Assembly (NCBI GenBank): GCA_023249105.1
Contig: JAHFDG010000010.1
Coordinates: 62,001-126,000 of the forward strand
DNA length: 64,000 nucleotides
From: Candidatus Methanoperedens sp.
GTDB lineage: Archaea; Halobacteriota; Methanosarcinia; Methanosarcinales; Methanoperedenaceae
Direction: 5' to 3'
The translations under genes were made by a program, and so were the position numbers. Below the pieces are notes generated by a model. The model was not told where the DNA came from, searched no databases, and saw only the letters and a program-made list of their open reading frames with translations. Shown one piece after another: positions 12,498 to 19,359 of the stretch. The first letter of the stretch is position 1; every line of letters begins with the position of its first letter.

Positions 12498-12569
12498 TCA
12501 CCGCAAAGAGCGCGAAGGTCGCAAAGTAAATATTGCGCTGCTTTGCGTTCTTTGCGTCCTCTGCGGTGA
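12498..12569. repeat. Palindromic intergenic repeat in the purH/ade gap
   Basis: The arms begin TCACCGCA and end TGCGGTGA and are built from GCAAAGNNCGC-like units spaced about 10-12 bases. The same termini occur at 22379-22496. The rest of the 12313-12651 gap contains only AT-rich sequence and the purH leader; I see no gene in it. Confidence 0.8.
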
Positions 12570-12651
12570 ATTATTCAGCAGTGAATTCTTCATTTTTCAA
12601 GTACAAATACGGGTATTTAGAGCTTCACTATAGTTGTTCATAATATTTTCA

Positions 12652-14373
12652 TCATCTTTGTATCGGCTCGATTATTTTAAACGCATCCACATCGACAAGC
12701 CCTTTATCTGTTATCTTGAGGGACGGGATAACGGGAAGCGACAGGAACGACATCTGGATAAAAGGCGCATCAAGTTTGCACCCCATCTTTGTGACCTCGC
12801 TATGAAGCTCTTTCAGTTTCTTATCCACATCGTATGCGCTTTCTGTACTGAGAATACCCGCAAAAGGAAGATGAAGGTAGTCTATGACCCCGTCTTTTGC
12901 AAGCACTATTCCCCCTTGCAGTTCCCGGAGCTTATTCGCACAGAGCGCCATGTCTTCAAAATTCGTACCCACAAGGATGACATTATGCGAGTCGTGGGCA
13001 ATGCTCTGCCCTATCGCGCCTTCTTCCAGGTTAAAGCCGCGCACAAATCCCCTACCCATGCTCCCCGACTTGCCGTGCCTTTCTATCACAGCTATGGCAA
13101 GAATGTCGCGCTCTATGTCAGGCATGACGGTCTTCCTATCGGTTTTTAATTCCTCAATGCTCCTGTTCGTAATAAGCCGACCCGGCACGAGCTCTATGAT
13201 ATGAGCAAAAACCGTCTTTTGCCCGGAGGTGAGTTTCAAGTCGTCAGGTTCTATTTTTTTATACTTCACAGTCCGAAAGACATAGCCGGGGTAATCGATT
13301 CCGTTTATTTTTGGTTTCATCCTGCCGCGCACCATCACGTTTTTTATCTTAAACGCCTGCAGGTCGTCAAGTATTACCAGGTTCGCCCGCCTGCCGATGC
13401 TTATCGAGCCCACGAGCTGGTCTATCCTGTAATGGCGCGCCGTGTTTATGGAAGCCATTGAAATCGCCTGGATTGGCTCTAATCCAAGCCTGATTGCTGC
13501 CCTGACTATGACATCCATATGCCCTTTTATGAGGTCGGCTGGTTGTTTGTCGTCGGTAACGAAGAAAAAGTTTTCAAGCGAAATACCATCACGAACCAAT
13601 GCGGGGATAAATTCCTGAAGGCTTTTTGCTGCCGACCCTTCCCGTATCATGACCTTCATGCCAAGGCGCGCCTTTTCAAGCGCTTCATCGTATGTTACGG
13701 ATTCATGGTCTGTTGAGATGCCGGCGCTCATGTACCCGAATAATTCCTTGCCGCGGACGCCGGGGCAGTGGCCGTCAACAACGAGTTTTCTTTCAAGTGC
13801 GGCTGCAATCATCGCAAGTTTTTCAGGATTCCCGCGAAGGATTCCGGGGTAATCCATTACTTCCCCGAGCCCGACAACGAATTTCTTATCAAGGAACTTT
13901 TTGATTTCCAAAAGACCCAGTTTTGCCCCGGATGTTTCAAGAGGACTTGAGGGCACACATGATGAAAGCGTGATAAAAACATCAATAGGCAGCCTTTTTG
14001 CCTCCAGCATAACAAGTTTGATGCCTTTTATGCCAAGGATATTTGCAATCTCATGCGGGTCGATGACGATGCCGGTTGTCCCGTGGAGTATGGATTGTTT
14101 TGCAAATTGTGTAAGCGTCACCATGCTTGACTCAAAATGCACGTGCCCGTCTATTAAGCCGGGGCATACGCAGGCGTTTTTTAAATCAAGTATCTCAGTT
14201 TTCCCGCCAATGAGTTCATCCACATCGCCCATGCCTGAGATGAAACCAGAGCTTATTGCTATGTCGCCTTTTGTAATCTCTTTTGTGTTGACGTTCACAA
14301 TCCTGCAGTTTGTAAGTACCGTGTCAGCCTTGATTTCGCCTTCCCCTGCGAATATCTTCTCTCTTAAGGACAT
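12652..14373 (-). CDS. ade: Adenine deaminase
   Basis: The 573-residue metal-dependent amidohydrolase converts adenine to hypoxanthine in purine salvage. The metal-binding GLIDGHVHFESSM follows the N-terminal beta-sandwich. Further metal-site histidines occur in VDGHCPG and STDHES, and a SMASINTARHYRI segment is typical of Ade. The C-terminal domain contains AHDSHNVILVGTN, also conserved in adenine deaminases. The length agrees with bacterial and archaeal Ade. It is a single gene, next to purH but separated from it by a repeat-bearing gap; both act on purines. Confidence 0.93.
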   Translation of the reverse strand: MSLREKIFAGEGEIKADTVLTNCRIVNVNTKEITKGDIAISSGFISGMGDVDELIGGKTEILDLKNACVCPGLIDGHVHFESSMVTLTQFAKQSILHGTTGIVIDPHEIANILGIKGIKLVMLEAKRLPIDVFITLSSCVPSSPLETSGAKLGLLEIKKFLDKKFVVGLGEVMDYPGILRGNPEKLAMIAAALERKLVVDGHCPGVRGKELFGYMSAGISTDHESVTYDEALEKARLGMKVMIREGSAAKSLQEFIPALVRDGISLENFFFVTDDKQPADLIKGHMDVIVRAAIRLGLEPIQAISMASINTARHYRIDQLVGSISIGRRANLVILDDLQAFKIKNVMVRGRMKPKINGIDYPGYVFRTVKYKKIEPDDLKLTSGQKTVFAHIIELVPGRLITNRSIEELKTDRKTVMPDIERDILAIAVIERHGKSGSMGRGFVRGFNLEEGAIGQSIAHDSHNVILVGTNFEDMALCANKLRELQGGIVLAKDGVIDYLHLPFAGILSTESAYDVDKKLKELHSEVTKMGCKLDAPFIQMSFLSLPVIPSLKITDKGLVDVDAFKIIEPIQR

Positions 14374-14433
14374 AATACAAGATTGTCCTGTATTGGTAAA
14401 AAAGTTCGCTGCTTAATCGGGGTTAAAGTCAGG

Positions 14434-14538
14434 ATGGCATTACCTCAAGAGCCAGACGAAATTATTGTGGTTATCCGTACCCATTTTGAGGCCAAAACAC
14501 TGCGCGAGGAGATTGCGGGGTATGAAGAAAACTATTAA
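14434..14538 (+). other. Possible short ORF or gene fragment, 34 residues
   Basis: ATG 14434 to TAA 14536-14538 encodes an acidic peptide with VVIRTHFEAKTLREEIAGYEE. It has no clear Shine-Dalgarno site and I do not recognise it. It sits 32 bases before the radical SAM/SPASM gene. It may be a small leader peptide, a remnant or a chance frame; the codon pattern alone does not decide. Confidence 0.2.
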
Positions 14539-14570
14539 TACTTTAAAGAAGCGCTAAATCAAGATGTCAT

Positions 14571-15734
14571 ATGGCTTTCCACGTAATGCTGATCCCAACT
14601 TTAAGCTGTCCTGCTAATTGCAGTTATTGCTGGAGTTCCGATAAAGGCTCCCCAATAATGAGCATTGAAACCATCAAAGAAGTAGTAGAATGGCTCAAGG
14701 ATTTCCGCAACGATCAAGTTACCTTTACCTTCCATGGCGGTGAGCCGCTAATGGCCGGAGTTGATTTTTACCGTGAGGCTCTACCATTACTGGCTAAGAA
14801 TCTCAGTCACTTGAAACCGGCTTTTGCACTTCAGTCGAATCTCTGGTTAATGACCCCGGAAATGGCCAGAGTCCTTGCAGAGTATAATATTCCAATCGGT
14901 TCCAGTCTTGATGGCCCAAAAGAACTTACTGATCTCCAGAGAGGAAAAGGATACTTCGATAAGACTATGAAGGGTTTTCAAATTGCCAGGGAAAATGGCC
15001 TTAAGGTGAGCTTTATTTGCACATTCACCTCCCATTCTGTAAAACAGAAAGAGGAGATCTTTAATTTTTTCCTTGAGAATGGCATAACCCTAAAATTACA
15101 TCCTGCCCTTCCATCAATTCGTGATGAAACTCCGGAAAAATTTGCACTTTCCCCGGAAGAGTATGGGGAATTGCTGGTTTATCTCCTGGATAAATACCTG
15201 GAAAACATGGGCAGGATTGAAATCATGAATATTGACCACCTGTGCAAATGCATGTTCACAAGCCGGGGCACTGTCTGTACTTTCGTTGATTGTATGGGAG
15301 ATACCTTTGCGGTTGGGCCTGATGGGAGCATCTATCCCTGCTATCGGTTCATAGGCATGCCGGAATATGTTATGGGTAATGTAAAAGAACATCCCCGGAA
15401 GGAAGACCTTGCACAGTCTGATGCATGGAAGAAAATGTTCCAATTTAAGGATTATGTGGACCAGAATTGCAAGGAATGCAGCAACATCAAATTCTGCCGG
15501 GGCGGATGTCCGTATAATGCCATAGCGCCTCATAATGGCGAAATAAAGGGCGTGGACCCGCACTGTATTGCTTATAAGAGGATATTCAAGGAAATAAAAG
15601 ACCGGTGGGAGAATGAGTTTTTTGGCTCACCTGATATGCCGATGTTCGGTCTTCCGGGAGAACCAAAAAAGAATGCAAAGCCCGGAATAATGCCCCTAAT
15701 GATGAAACGCATTCAATCCCATGATTCGGGTTAA
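14571..15734 (+). CDS. Radical SAM/SPASM peptide-modifying enzyme (Mhun_1560-like)
   Basis: The 387-residue enzyme carries the radical SAM cysteines C13, C17 and C20 in SCPANCSYC and the FHGGEPL motif. Its C-terminal SPASM region has cysteines in YPCYRF, NCKECSNIKFCRGGCPYNA and DPHCIAYK, which would hold two auxiliary Fe-S clusters. The N-terminal FHVMLIPTLSCP and WSSDKGSP match my memory of the family described as putative peptide-modifying radical SAM enzyme, Mhun_1560 family (TIGR04083). A 56-residue Cys-rich ORF lies 24 bases beyond its stop on the opposite strand, a plausible substrate. The modification itself is unknown. Confidence 0.87.
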   Translation: MAFHVMLIPTLSCPANCSYCWSSDKGSPIMSIETIKEVVEWLKDFRNDQVTFTFHGGEPLMAGVDFYREALPLLAKNLSHLKPAFALQSNLWLMTPEMARVLAEYNIPIGSSLDGPKELTDLQRGKGYFDKTMKGFQIARENGLKVSFICTFTSHSVKQKEEIFNFFLENGITLKLHPALPSIRDETPEKFALSPEEYGELLVYLLDKYLENMGRIEIMNIDHLCKCMFTSRGTVCTFVDCMGDTFAVGPDGSIYPCYRFIGMPEYVMGNVKEHPRKEDLAQSDAWKKMFQFKDYVDQNCKECSNIKFCRGGCPYNAIAPHNGEIKGVDPHCIAYKRIFKEIKDRWENEFFGSPDMPMFGLPGEPKKNAKPGIMPLMMKRIQSHDSG

Positions 15735-15758
15735 AAAGTCTTGAATTCCCCAACAGCT

Positions 15759-15929
15759 TCATGTTTCGGGAAGCGAATACCCTTCAAGTCTCGATGGACA
15801 AATCCCTGAACCAACTGTCATGACTGAACCGCAGTCAGGACACTCGATCTCAAGTGAGCCGGAATCGGTCAGGCTCAGTTGCATTCTGTTATTCCCGCAA
15901 GGGCAGGCTAATCTCTTCTTCTCGGTCAT
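15759..15929 (-). CDS. Small Cys-rich protein, candidate radical SAM substrate
   Basis: A 56-residue protein with cysteines C9, C11, C30, C33 and C44, in CPCGNN, CPDCGS and GICPSR. The first four could bind zinc as a CxC...CxxC ribbon. The tail GSGICPSRLEGYSLPET carries a lone Cys and could be the modified part. It is convergent with the SPASM radical SAM gene, 24 bases apart. I recall a methanogen family of small modified Cys-rich peptides (TIGR04165) encoded beside TIGR04083 enzymes; this ORF fits in size, Cys spacing and position. A plain zinc-ribbon protein is the main alternative. Confidence 0.65.
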   Translation of the reverse strand: MTEKKRLACPCGNNRMQLSLTDSGSLEIECPDCGSVMTVGSGICPSRLEGYSLPET

Positions 15930-16049
15930 AGTTATATTTTAACCTTGATGGTATATTTCACAGTTTCGGTTATTCACCATTGGGTACGTCAACTGAAAAG
16001 CTTAATTACTTCCAATACATTAAAAAAGCTGTTTCTTTTAGTACAGAAA

Positions 16050-16099
16050 CGGGCGATGGAGTTCGCCTTTAACCGCCTGAAAGCTGATAACTCCTACCA
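16050..16099 (+). ncRNA. Fluoride riboswitch (crcB motif)
   Basis: The segment reads GGGCGATGGAGTTCGCC, then TTTAACCGCCTGAAAG, then CTGATAACTCCTACC. This matches the crcB/fluoride aptamer: a first stem GGGCGATG...CGCC, an apical GGAGTT that pairs with downstream AACTCC as a pseudoknot, and the conserved GCTGAT...CTCCTAC end. It lies 30 bases before the start of a cation:proton antiporter, a gene class known to be controlled by this riboswitch. The only notable variant is A for G after GCTGAT. Confidence 0.92.
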
Positions 16100-16128
16100 A
16101 TTAACCTTAGTTTGAATGGAGACAGGAC

Positions 16129-17277
16129 ATGAGAGCGGACATAATAGCGATTGCAGGTATATTGGTTTTCATTTCAAGTTTAATTTCCTTGAAACTCGGG
16201 CTATCAGTAGCGATAATTGAAATTCTCCTCGGGGCGATTGCCGGGAATTTCGGGGTTCAACCGGACGATTGGATGCTGTATCTGGCAAGTTTTGGCGGGA
16301 TTCTCCTGACTTTTCTTGCGGGGACTGAAATCGATACAAATTTAATGAAGGAAAAATTTAAAGAGACCTTTCTTATTGGCATTTTTTCTTTTTTAACACC
16401 TTTTATCGGAGTTTTCCTTTATACATACTATATTGAAAATTGGAGTCTGTTTGCATCTTTAATTGCTGGGACAGCCTTGTCTGAAACATCTCTGGCTGTA
16501 GTCTATTCGGTTCTTGTAGAAACGGGATTATCAAAAACTGAGATTGGTAAATTAATAATGGCATCTACCTTTATGACTGATATGGGCACTGCGATTGCAT
16601 TAAGCGTATTGTTTGTCAAGCCAACGCTCTATACAGCCATCTTTATTTTAGTTTCATTATGCGTGATTTATTTTGCAGGAAATTTCTCTCATTACGTTTT
16701 CCATAATCCGAAATTGAAGAACAAAGTAATCGAGCCTGAAATAAAATATATCTTCCTGCTTTTGTTTATGTTTATGTTTTTCGCAAATATAGGTGAGGGG
16801 CAGGCGGTCTTGCCTGCATTTGTCCTGGGACTTGTGATGTCAAAACATTTTACTGAGACATCAGTGACGAAGGATGTAAGGAACAGGTTGAGAACAGTTG
16901 CCTATGCGGTTATTACCCCGATATTTTTTATTGTTGCAGGACTAAAGGTTTCATTGCCGCTGATTGCATCTGCATTTGGGATTTTTGTTGCTATTTTTAT
17001 TGTTAAACAGTTGAGTAAGTTCATCGGTGTTTATTTTCTTGCAAAAAAATATATTCCCGAAGGAAATATTTATACAACGCTGTTAATGAGTACAGGTTTA
17101 ACTTTTGGGCTGGTGGCAAGCCTGTTTGGTTTGCAGTCAGGTTTAATAAACCAGGTGCAGTATTCTGTTTTGACCGGGGTGCTCATAGCAAGTGCTGTAA
17201 TCCCGACTATCATAGCACAGAAATGGTTTATGCCGGTTCATTCTGAGGATCTGGTTGATTTGAATAATGGGAATTGA
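16129..17277 (+). CDS. Cation:proton antiporter (CPA2 type), fluoride-riboswitch controlled
   Basis: The 382-residue membrane protein has about 11-12 hydrophobic segments with no large soluble domain. It resembles the Na+/H+ exchanger domain of CPA2 transporters: a FLAGTEIDTNLMK segment near residue 62 and TFMTDMGTAIALS near 148 carry the acidic and polar residues expected in the ion pathway. The start ATG follows GGAGACAGG. The upstream fluoride riboswitch suggests expression when fluoride accumulates. The protein may help expel fluoride or correct the pH load of HF entry; direct fluoride transport is not shown by the sequence. It is a single gene. Confidence 0.88.
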   Translation: MRADIIAIAGILVFISSLISLKLGLSVAIIEILLGAIAGNFGVQPDDWMLYLASFGGILLTFLAGTEIDTNLMKEKFKETFLIGIFSFLTPFIGVFLYTYYIENWSLFASLIAGTALSETSLAVVYSVLVETGLSKTEIGKLIMASTFMTDMGTAIALSVLFVKPTLYTAIFILVSLCVIYFAGNFSHYVFHNPKLKNKVIEPEIKYIFLLLFMFMFFANIGEGQAVLPAFVLGLVMSKHFTETSVTKDVRNRLRTVAYAVITPIFFIVAGLKVSLPLIASAFGIFVAIFIVKQLSKFIGVYFLAKKYIPEGNIYTTLLMSTGLTFGLVASLFGLQSGLINQVQYSVLTGVLIASAVIPTIIAQKWFMPVHSEDLVDLNNGN

Positions 17278-17462
17278 AAGGGATAGCTGGTTTGATGGGA
17301 TGGACTGTGCTCGCCCAAAATGCTCCACAACTTCGCAAACAGCAGACTGCTATGCTCACCGCACCATTCCTTGAGGCAGTGATACCGTATTCCTATCGTG
17401 AAAATCAAGTCTAAAAAAAAGTAAAATTGGATACTCCAATGGAATATCCACAAAAAGCCAGT

Positions 17463-19359
<1,897 letters not shown>

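Follow-up and report, generated by a model that had tools for sequence, protein, structure and literature searches.

Haloarchaea, as seen in Haloferax volcanii, encode 43-49 C(P)XCG micro-proteins, which are shorter than 70 residues and carry two C(P)XCG-type motifs (PMC11241148, PMC10716476). Zinc was bound by 9 of the 14 that have been purified (PMC11241148), and most of the mutants obtained by deleting 16 of the genes were unlike the wild type (PMC10716476). AlphaFold2 is reported to be unable to tell whether such micro-proteins bind metal (PMC11241148).

A second group of small archaeal cysteine-rich proteins, TIGR04165 (methano_modCys), comprises peptides of about 50 residues with two paired cysteine motifs, and the first-pass annotation of the locus described here stated that such peptides sit beside radical SAM/SPASM enzymes of the family TIGR04083 (rSAM_pep_methan) in methanogens. 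In two Methanobacteriaceae genomes the two genes are indeed near each other, 1.9 and 3.6 kb apart, and each of these genomes has a second TIGR04165 copy elsewhere. A literature search found no paper naming TIGR04083 or TIGR04165, and we know of no reaction assigned to TIGR04083. The annotation went on to propose that a small cysteine-rich open reading frame (ORF) beside a TIGR04083 gene is its peptide partner. The pair lies in a 64,000-nucleotide stretch of a Candidatus Methanoperedens genome, hereafter the window.

A conserved cysteine-rich micro-protein in Methanosarcinales

The micro-protein ORF occupies positions 15759-15929 on the minus strand, starts with ATG, and encodes a product of 56 residues, MTEKKRLACPCGNNRMQLSLTDSGSLEIECPDCGSVMTVGSGICPSRLEGYSLPET. 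Re-reading of the sequence agreed with the annotated cysteines (C9, C11, C30, C33, and C44) and bore out the spacing and orientation of the neighbouring SPASM radical SAM gene, which lies at 14571-15734 on the plus strand, ends 24 bases from the stop of the micro-protein, and is convergent with it. The product has a zinc-ribbon-like CxCG...CPxCG arrangement followed by a GxG[IL]CP[ST]RL tail.

Clear homologues are present in 7 of 238 genomes of the class, all from Methanosarcinales, in a total of nine copies. Those in the six genomes besides the window's own show 56-87% identity, and 25 columns are invariant, including all five cysteines. Between the window and genome G001 there are 2, 4, and 11 differences at codon positions 1, 2, and 3. 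In all pairs tested dS exceeds dN, indicating purifying selection. Because homologues occur in seven genomes, the cysteines are invariant, and changes are concentrated at third positions, the ORF is, on this comparative evidence, a real gene; a lack of conservation, which the first-pass annotation named as grounds for abandoning it, was not what was found. TGA codons inside four homologue matches were considered as selenocysteine and rejected, as reading of the frames showed an ordinary stop at the peptide end. TAG-containing matches in G210, G215, and G218 were set aside as chance, their frames holding several stops. A search of the wider phylum returned only weak zinc-ribbon matches within longer frames, and no viral or plasmid carriage of the micro-protein was found when looked for.

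Putative promoter and translation-start signals lie upstream of the gene at 15940-15959 (minus strand), with a TATA-like GAAATATACC at 15950-15959 and AAGGTTA at 15940-15946, so that the TATA-like and AAGG elements together lie 10-30 bp ahead of the ATG. This stretch (GAAATATAYC...AAGG) is kept in G000 (the window genome), G076, G182, and G186 in unlinked contexts, and the promoter therefore appears to move together with the micro-protein gene.

By sequence, the micro-protein is like the C(P)XCG zinc-ribbon micro-proteins of archaea, to which it adds an invariant tail. It is shorter than 70 residues, has two motifs of the required type (C9-P-C11-G and C30-P-D-C33-G), and its CxCG-(18)-CPxCG spacing fits the H. 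volcanii proteins. HVO_2753 and HVO_0758 of H. volcanii likewise are archaeal, shorter than 70 residues, and combine paired CxCG/CPxCG cysteines with a predicted beta-ribbon metal site (PMC11241148, PMC10716476), but sequence homology above cut-offs is absent (the HVO_2753 model gives 14.3 bits against 80 for the G001 homologue), and unlike both proteins the micro-protein has a CxC first knuckle and a fifth invariant cysteine in a conserved tail. This GxG[IL]CP[ST]RL tail with its fifth cysteine is the distinctive feature of the micro-protein. Pfam and NCBIfam profiles gave zinc-ribbon matches only, all sub-threshold. Predicted structures show a beta-ribbon at low confidence (pLDDT 61-64), and the best Foldseek matches, none of them significant, are mostly zinc-ribbon domains (RPB9/C11, RNase P, initiation factors). 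Sequence matches of the micro-protein profile in the PDB were discarded as zinc-finger noise.

Membership of TIGR04165 did not hold up, as the ORF has no match to that profile at E<=1 (curated cut-off 60 bits); the profile also found no match in the window's genome, and the same tools reached up to 91 bits in the two Methanobacteriaceae genomes, which served as a positive control. The TIGR04165 peptides share with the micro-protein their length, paired cysteines, and proximity to TIGR04083, but they have CxxC-CxxC only, without the GxGICPSRL tail.

The TIGR04083 enzyme

The assignment of the neighbouring enzyme to TIGR04083 was upheld by a full-length match of 687.3 bits (profile 1-376 of 376, curated cut-off 300), and nothing about the window enzyme is unusual for the family. 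It has the radical SAM CxxxCxxC motif (C13, C17, C20) and the full set of eight SPASM cysteines (C236, C241, C257, C300, C303, C309, C313, C332), all of which are conserved in 118 of the 118 TIGR04083 proteins compared, namely those from the fetched loci. Close relatives of the gene include that of Methanoperedens strain BLZ2.

By profile, the enzymes closest to TIGR04083 are sulfatase maturases and peptide maturases, and the best solved relative of the window enzyme is the anaerobic sulfatase-maturating enzyme, anSME (PDB 4k36-4k39, E 8e-34), which shares the CxxxCxxC motif and eight SPASM cysteines. Asp277 is the catalytic base of anSME; its position is an invariant Tyr in TIGR04083 (118/118; Tyr258 in the window enzyme). 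From the invariant cysteines and this replacement, TIGR04083 probably carries two auxiliary clusters like those of anSME, yet is no sulfatase maturase. An anaerobic sulfatase maturase was also rejected by score for the window enzyme, at 189.5 bits against a cut-off of 349.45. The GMGT lipid synthase, likewise a radical SAM enzyme with SPASM domain from anaerobic archaea, was weighed as what TIGR04083 might be; it is longer and has an extra N-terminal domain (PMC11186832), and the idea was set aside.

Of 34 Methanoperedenaceae genomes, 30 have TIGR04083, as do 154 of the 238 class genomes (~65%), nearly always as a single copy and with strikingly even scores. Across about 120 loci it has no conserved neighbour gene, its context varying by genome. 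What is conserved is an upstream element, at 14528-14544 on the plus strand in the window (AAAACTATTAATACTTT), which may be a promoter or operator. It is near-palindromic (GGAAAACTATTAATAGTTTGAAGAA) and recurs before TIGR04083 at most of the loci compared, in very different gene contexts across Methanosarcinales. Across the 34 genomes searched, just one further site recurs clearly, in the promoter region of an SRP19-like gene, and as a shared operator the element points to no substrate of TIGR04083.

Linkage between micro-protein and enzyme

The first-pass annotation suggested that the tail cysteine of the micro-protein may be the modified site. Its pairing of peptide and enzyme is borne out in part, in that the two adjoin in one other genome. 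In G076, a Methanosarcinaceae metagenome-assembled genome (MAG), the micro-protein is 238 bp upstream of TIGR04083 and divergent from it, an adjacency that rests on a single 7.5-kb contig (JAFGOO010000134.1). This is the one case of adjacency among five independent contexts beyond the window, and simple gene counting puts the chance of it at ~0.3% (expectation ~0.003), our own estimate assuming ~3,000 genes, two neighbours each, and random placement. The enzymes of G000 and G076 fall in different parts of the TIGR04083 tree, which makes it unlikely that the two genes were transferred as one pair. Of all the evidence for linking the two genes, the G076 adjacency is the strongest, and because of it the link is not dismissed.

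The rest of the pairing fared less well. In five of the seven genomes (G001, G003, G009, G182, and G186) the two genes are apart, TIGR04083 lying elsewhere in each; precursor and maturase genes of a RiPP system would be consistently linked, and linkage here is seen in two of the seven. With neighbour genes named by eye, a trpCBA-like run in G001 and G003 ends in a trpA-like gene, and the micro-protein begins 2 bp beyond it; in G009 the micro-protein lies between acyl-CoA-synthetase-like and ribosomal L10e-like genes, and in G182 and G186 it is present in two copies each, at other places. The second copy in G186 and G182 (L111, L112) sits beside an AAA ATPase and HNH-like pair that by eye resembles a Septu-type defence system. 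The annotation had accepted that grouping with ordinary zinc-ribbon proteins outside radical SAM neighbourhoods would count against it, and the micro-protein does look zinc-ribbon-like, with radical SAM neighbours lacking in most of its genomes.

Viewed from the enzyme, the association is sparser still. All seven micro-protein genomes also carry TIGR04083, as does ~65% of the class at large, but within Methanoperedenaceae the micro-protein occurs in 4 of 34 genomes against 30 of 34 for the enzyme, and 26 of the 30 enzyme-bearing genomes are without it. In Methanosarcina acetivorans, which has a single TIGR04083 gene, the micro-protein was not detected. In the four closest relatives checked, TIGR04083 is 95-97% identical, with no micro-protein nearby and a 53-residue AbrB/MazE-like ORF after the enzyme gene. 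An initial enrichment of cysteine-rich micro-proteins within 500 bp of TIGR04083 was discarded: the first set, which contained the window itself, ferredoxins, one spurious ORF, and related genomes, gave 7 near against 7 far, and a fresh set of 40 loci had none beside the enzyme.

Other small proteins accompany TIGR04083 elsewhere. The AbrB/MazE-like protein (MGEVVKL...FTC[SG]GE.G.R) directly follows the enzyme gene at 12-46 bp in eight Methanoperedens genomes (L117, L118, L122, L128, L130, L133, L138, L139) and is thus a commoner small neighbour than the cysteine-rich ORF. Another cysteine-rich micro-protein, MCSVGDAFNIEITALNAKFYKCGDCKNEFRGVGKKVICPSCQSGNVSPMFKEE, is near TIGR04083 in two Methanoperedens genomes, ~120 bp upstream and divergent at L121 and 1.1 kb upstream at L119. 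In three genomes of one Methanosarcinaceae genus (g26, probably Methanosarcina), at L211, L212, and L292, a 46-residue protein containing the motifs CPKC and YCD[VI]C is encoded 0.3-0.9 kb downstream of TIGR04083 and convergent with it.

Gene order in the genus is heavily shuffled. The neighbours ade, TIGR04083, antiporter, and groEL, which together span 12631-19200 in the window, are spread over four separate contigs in the closest relatives, at ~91% identity, and adjacency in the window is for that reason weakly informative. A dispersed repeat of ~76 bp at 12500-12576 has many copies on both strands of the Methanoperedens genomes searched, and its overlapping both-strand matches suggest a palindrome.

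Roles of the micro-protein and the enzyme

The explanation that we favour, and consider probable, is that the micro-protein is a true C(P)XCG-type protein with a patchy distribution in Methanosarcinales, that it stands alone, outside any two-gene peptide-modification system, and that TIGR04083 targets something else. The gene is real and conserved, and its distribution and independence of location are read directly from the genomes. A small beta-ribbon would probably bind a single metal ion through Cys9, Cys11, Cys30, and Cys33, the metal being zinc, or possibly cobalt or nickel, and a partner, either protein or nucleic acid, is probably contacted by the tail that carries Cys44. The gene, with its own short promoter, would occupy different sites in different genomes, its place next to TIGR04083 in the window would be a result of the strong gene shuffling in the genus, and its function would not depend on an enzyme that most likely acts on another, widely shared target.

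That the micro-protein is itself the substrate of TIGR04083, with a residue of the invariant tail, perhaps Cys44, modified or a cysteine crosslinked to a neighbour, we regard as unlikely. The two different arrangements in which the genes adjoin, the enzyme's presence in all seven peptide genomes, and the sulfatase and peptide maturases among its nearest relatives are what such a substrate would lead one to expect. The invariance of Cys44 and its surroundings can be added, although it is compatible with a stand-alone protein as well, and an invariant tail is unlike the variable core of a RiPP. Most enzyme-bearing Methanoperedenaceae manage without the peptide, most peptide genes are unlinked, the adjoining genes are convergent or divergent and never form a single operon, and neither an exporter nor a leader peptidase gene directly adjoins the pair. 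A broader version, in which TIGR04083 modifies zinc-ribbon-like micro-proteins of families that differ by archaeon (TIGR04165 in Methanobacteriaceae), here at the Cys44 tail, appears a degree more doubtful.

The stand-alone explanation may be extended by supposing for TIGR04083 a common core-cell target, with the micro-protein irrelevant to the enzyme, although in this specific form it is improbable. It would account for a single-copy enzyme of very even score in 154 of 238 genomes with no conserved neighbour, and for a relative of the two-electron-oxidising anSME that nevertheless has Tyr at the Asp277 position throughout. A speculative proposal for this target is the didehydroaspartate in methyl-coenzyme M reductase (MCR), for which we know of no assigned enzyme. 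The residue is present in ANME-2d MCR (PMC12413448), but some genomes of MCR-bearing lineages are without TIGR04083. Equally improbable is that the micro-protein, itself unmodified, is a regulator or helper of TIGR04083, such as a chaperone for metal or cluster or a partner, a role that its zinc-ribbon-like look and the adjacency in two unrelated genomes would suit but that the absence of the micro-protein from most TIGR04083 genomes opposes.

Where gene order is as heavily shuffled as in this genus, neighbourhood alone is poor evidence of substrate choice. As it stands, the value of the locus is that it documents an undescribed family of micro-proteins; if the pairing were true, it would also provide a testable substrate for TIGR04083, a family that about two thirds of the class genomes searched encode.
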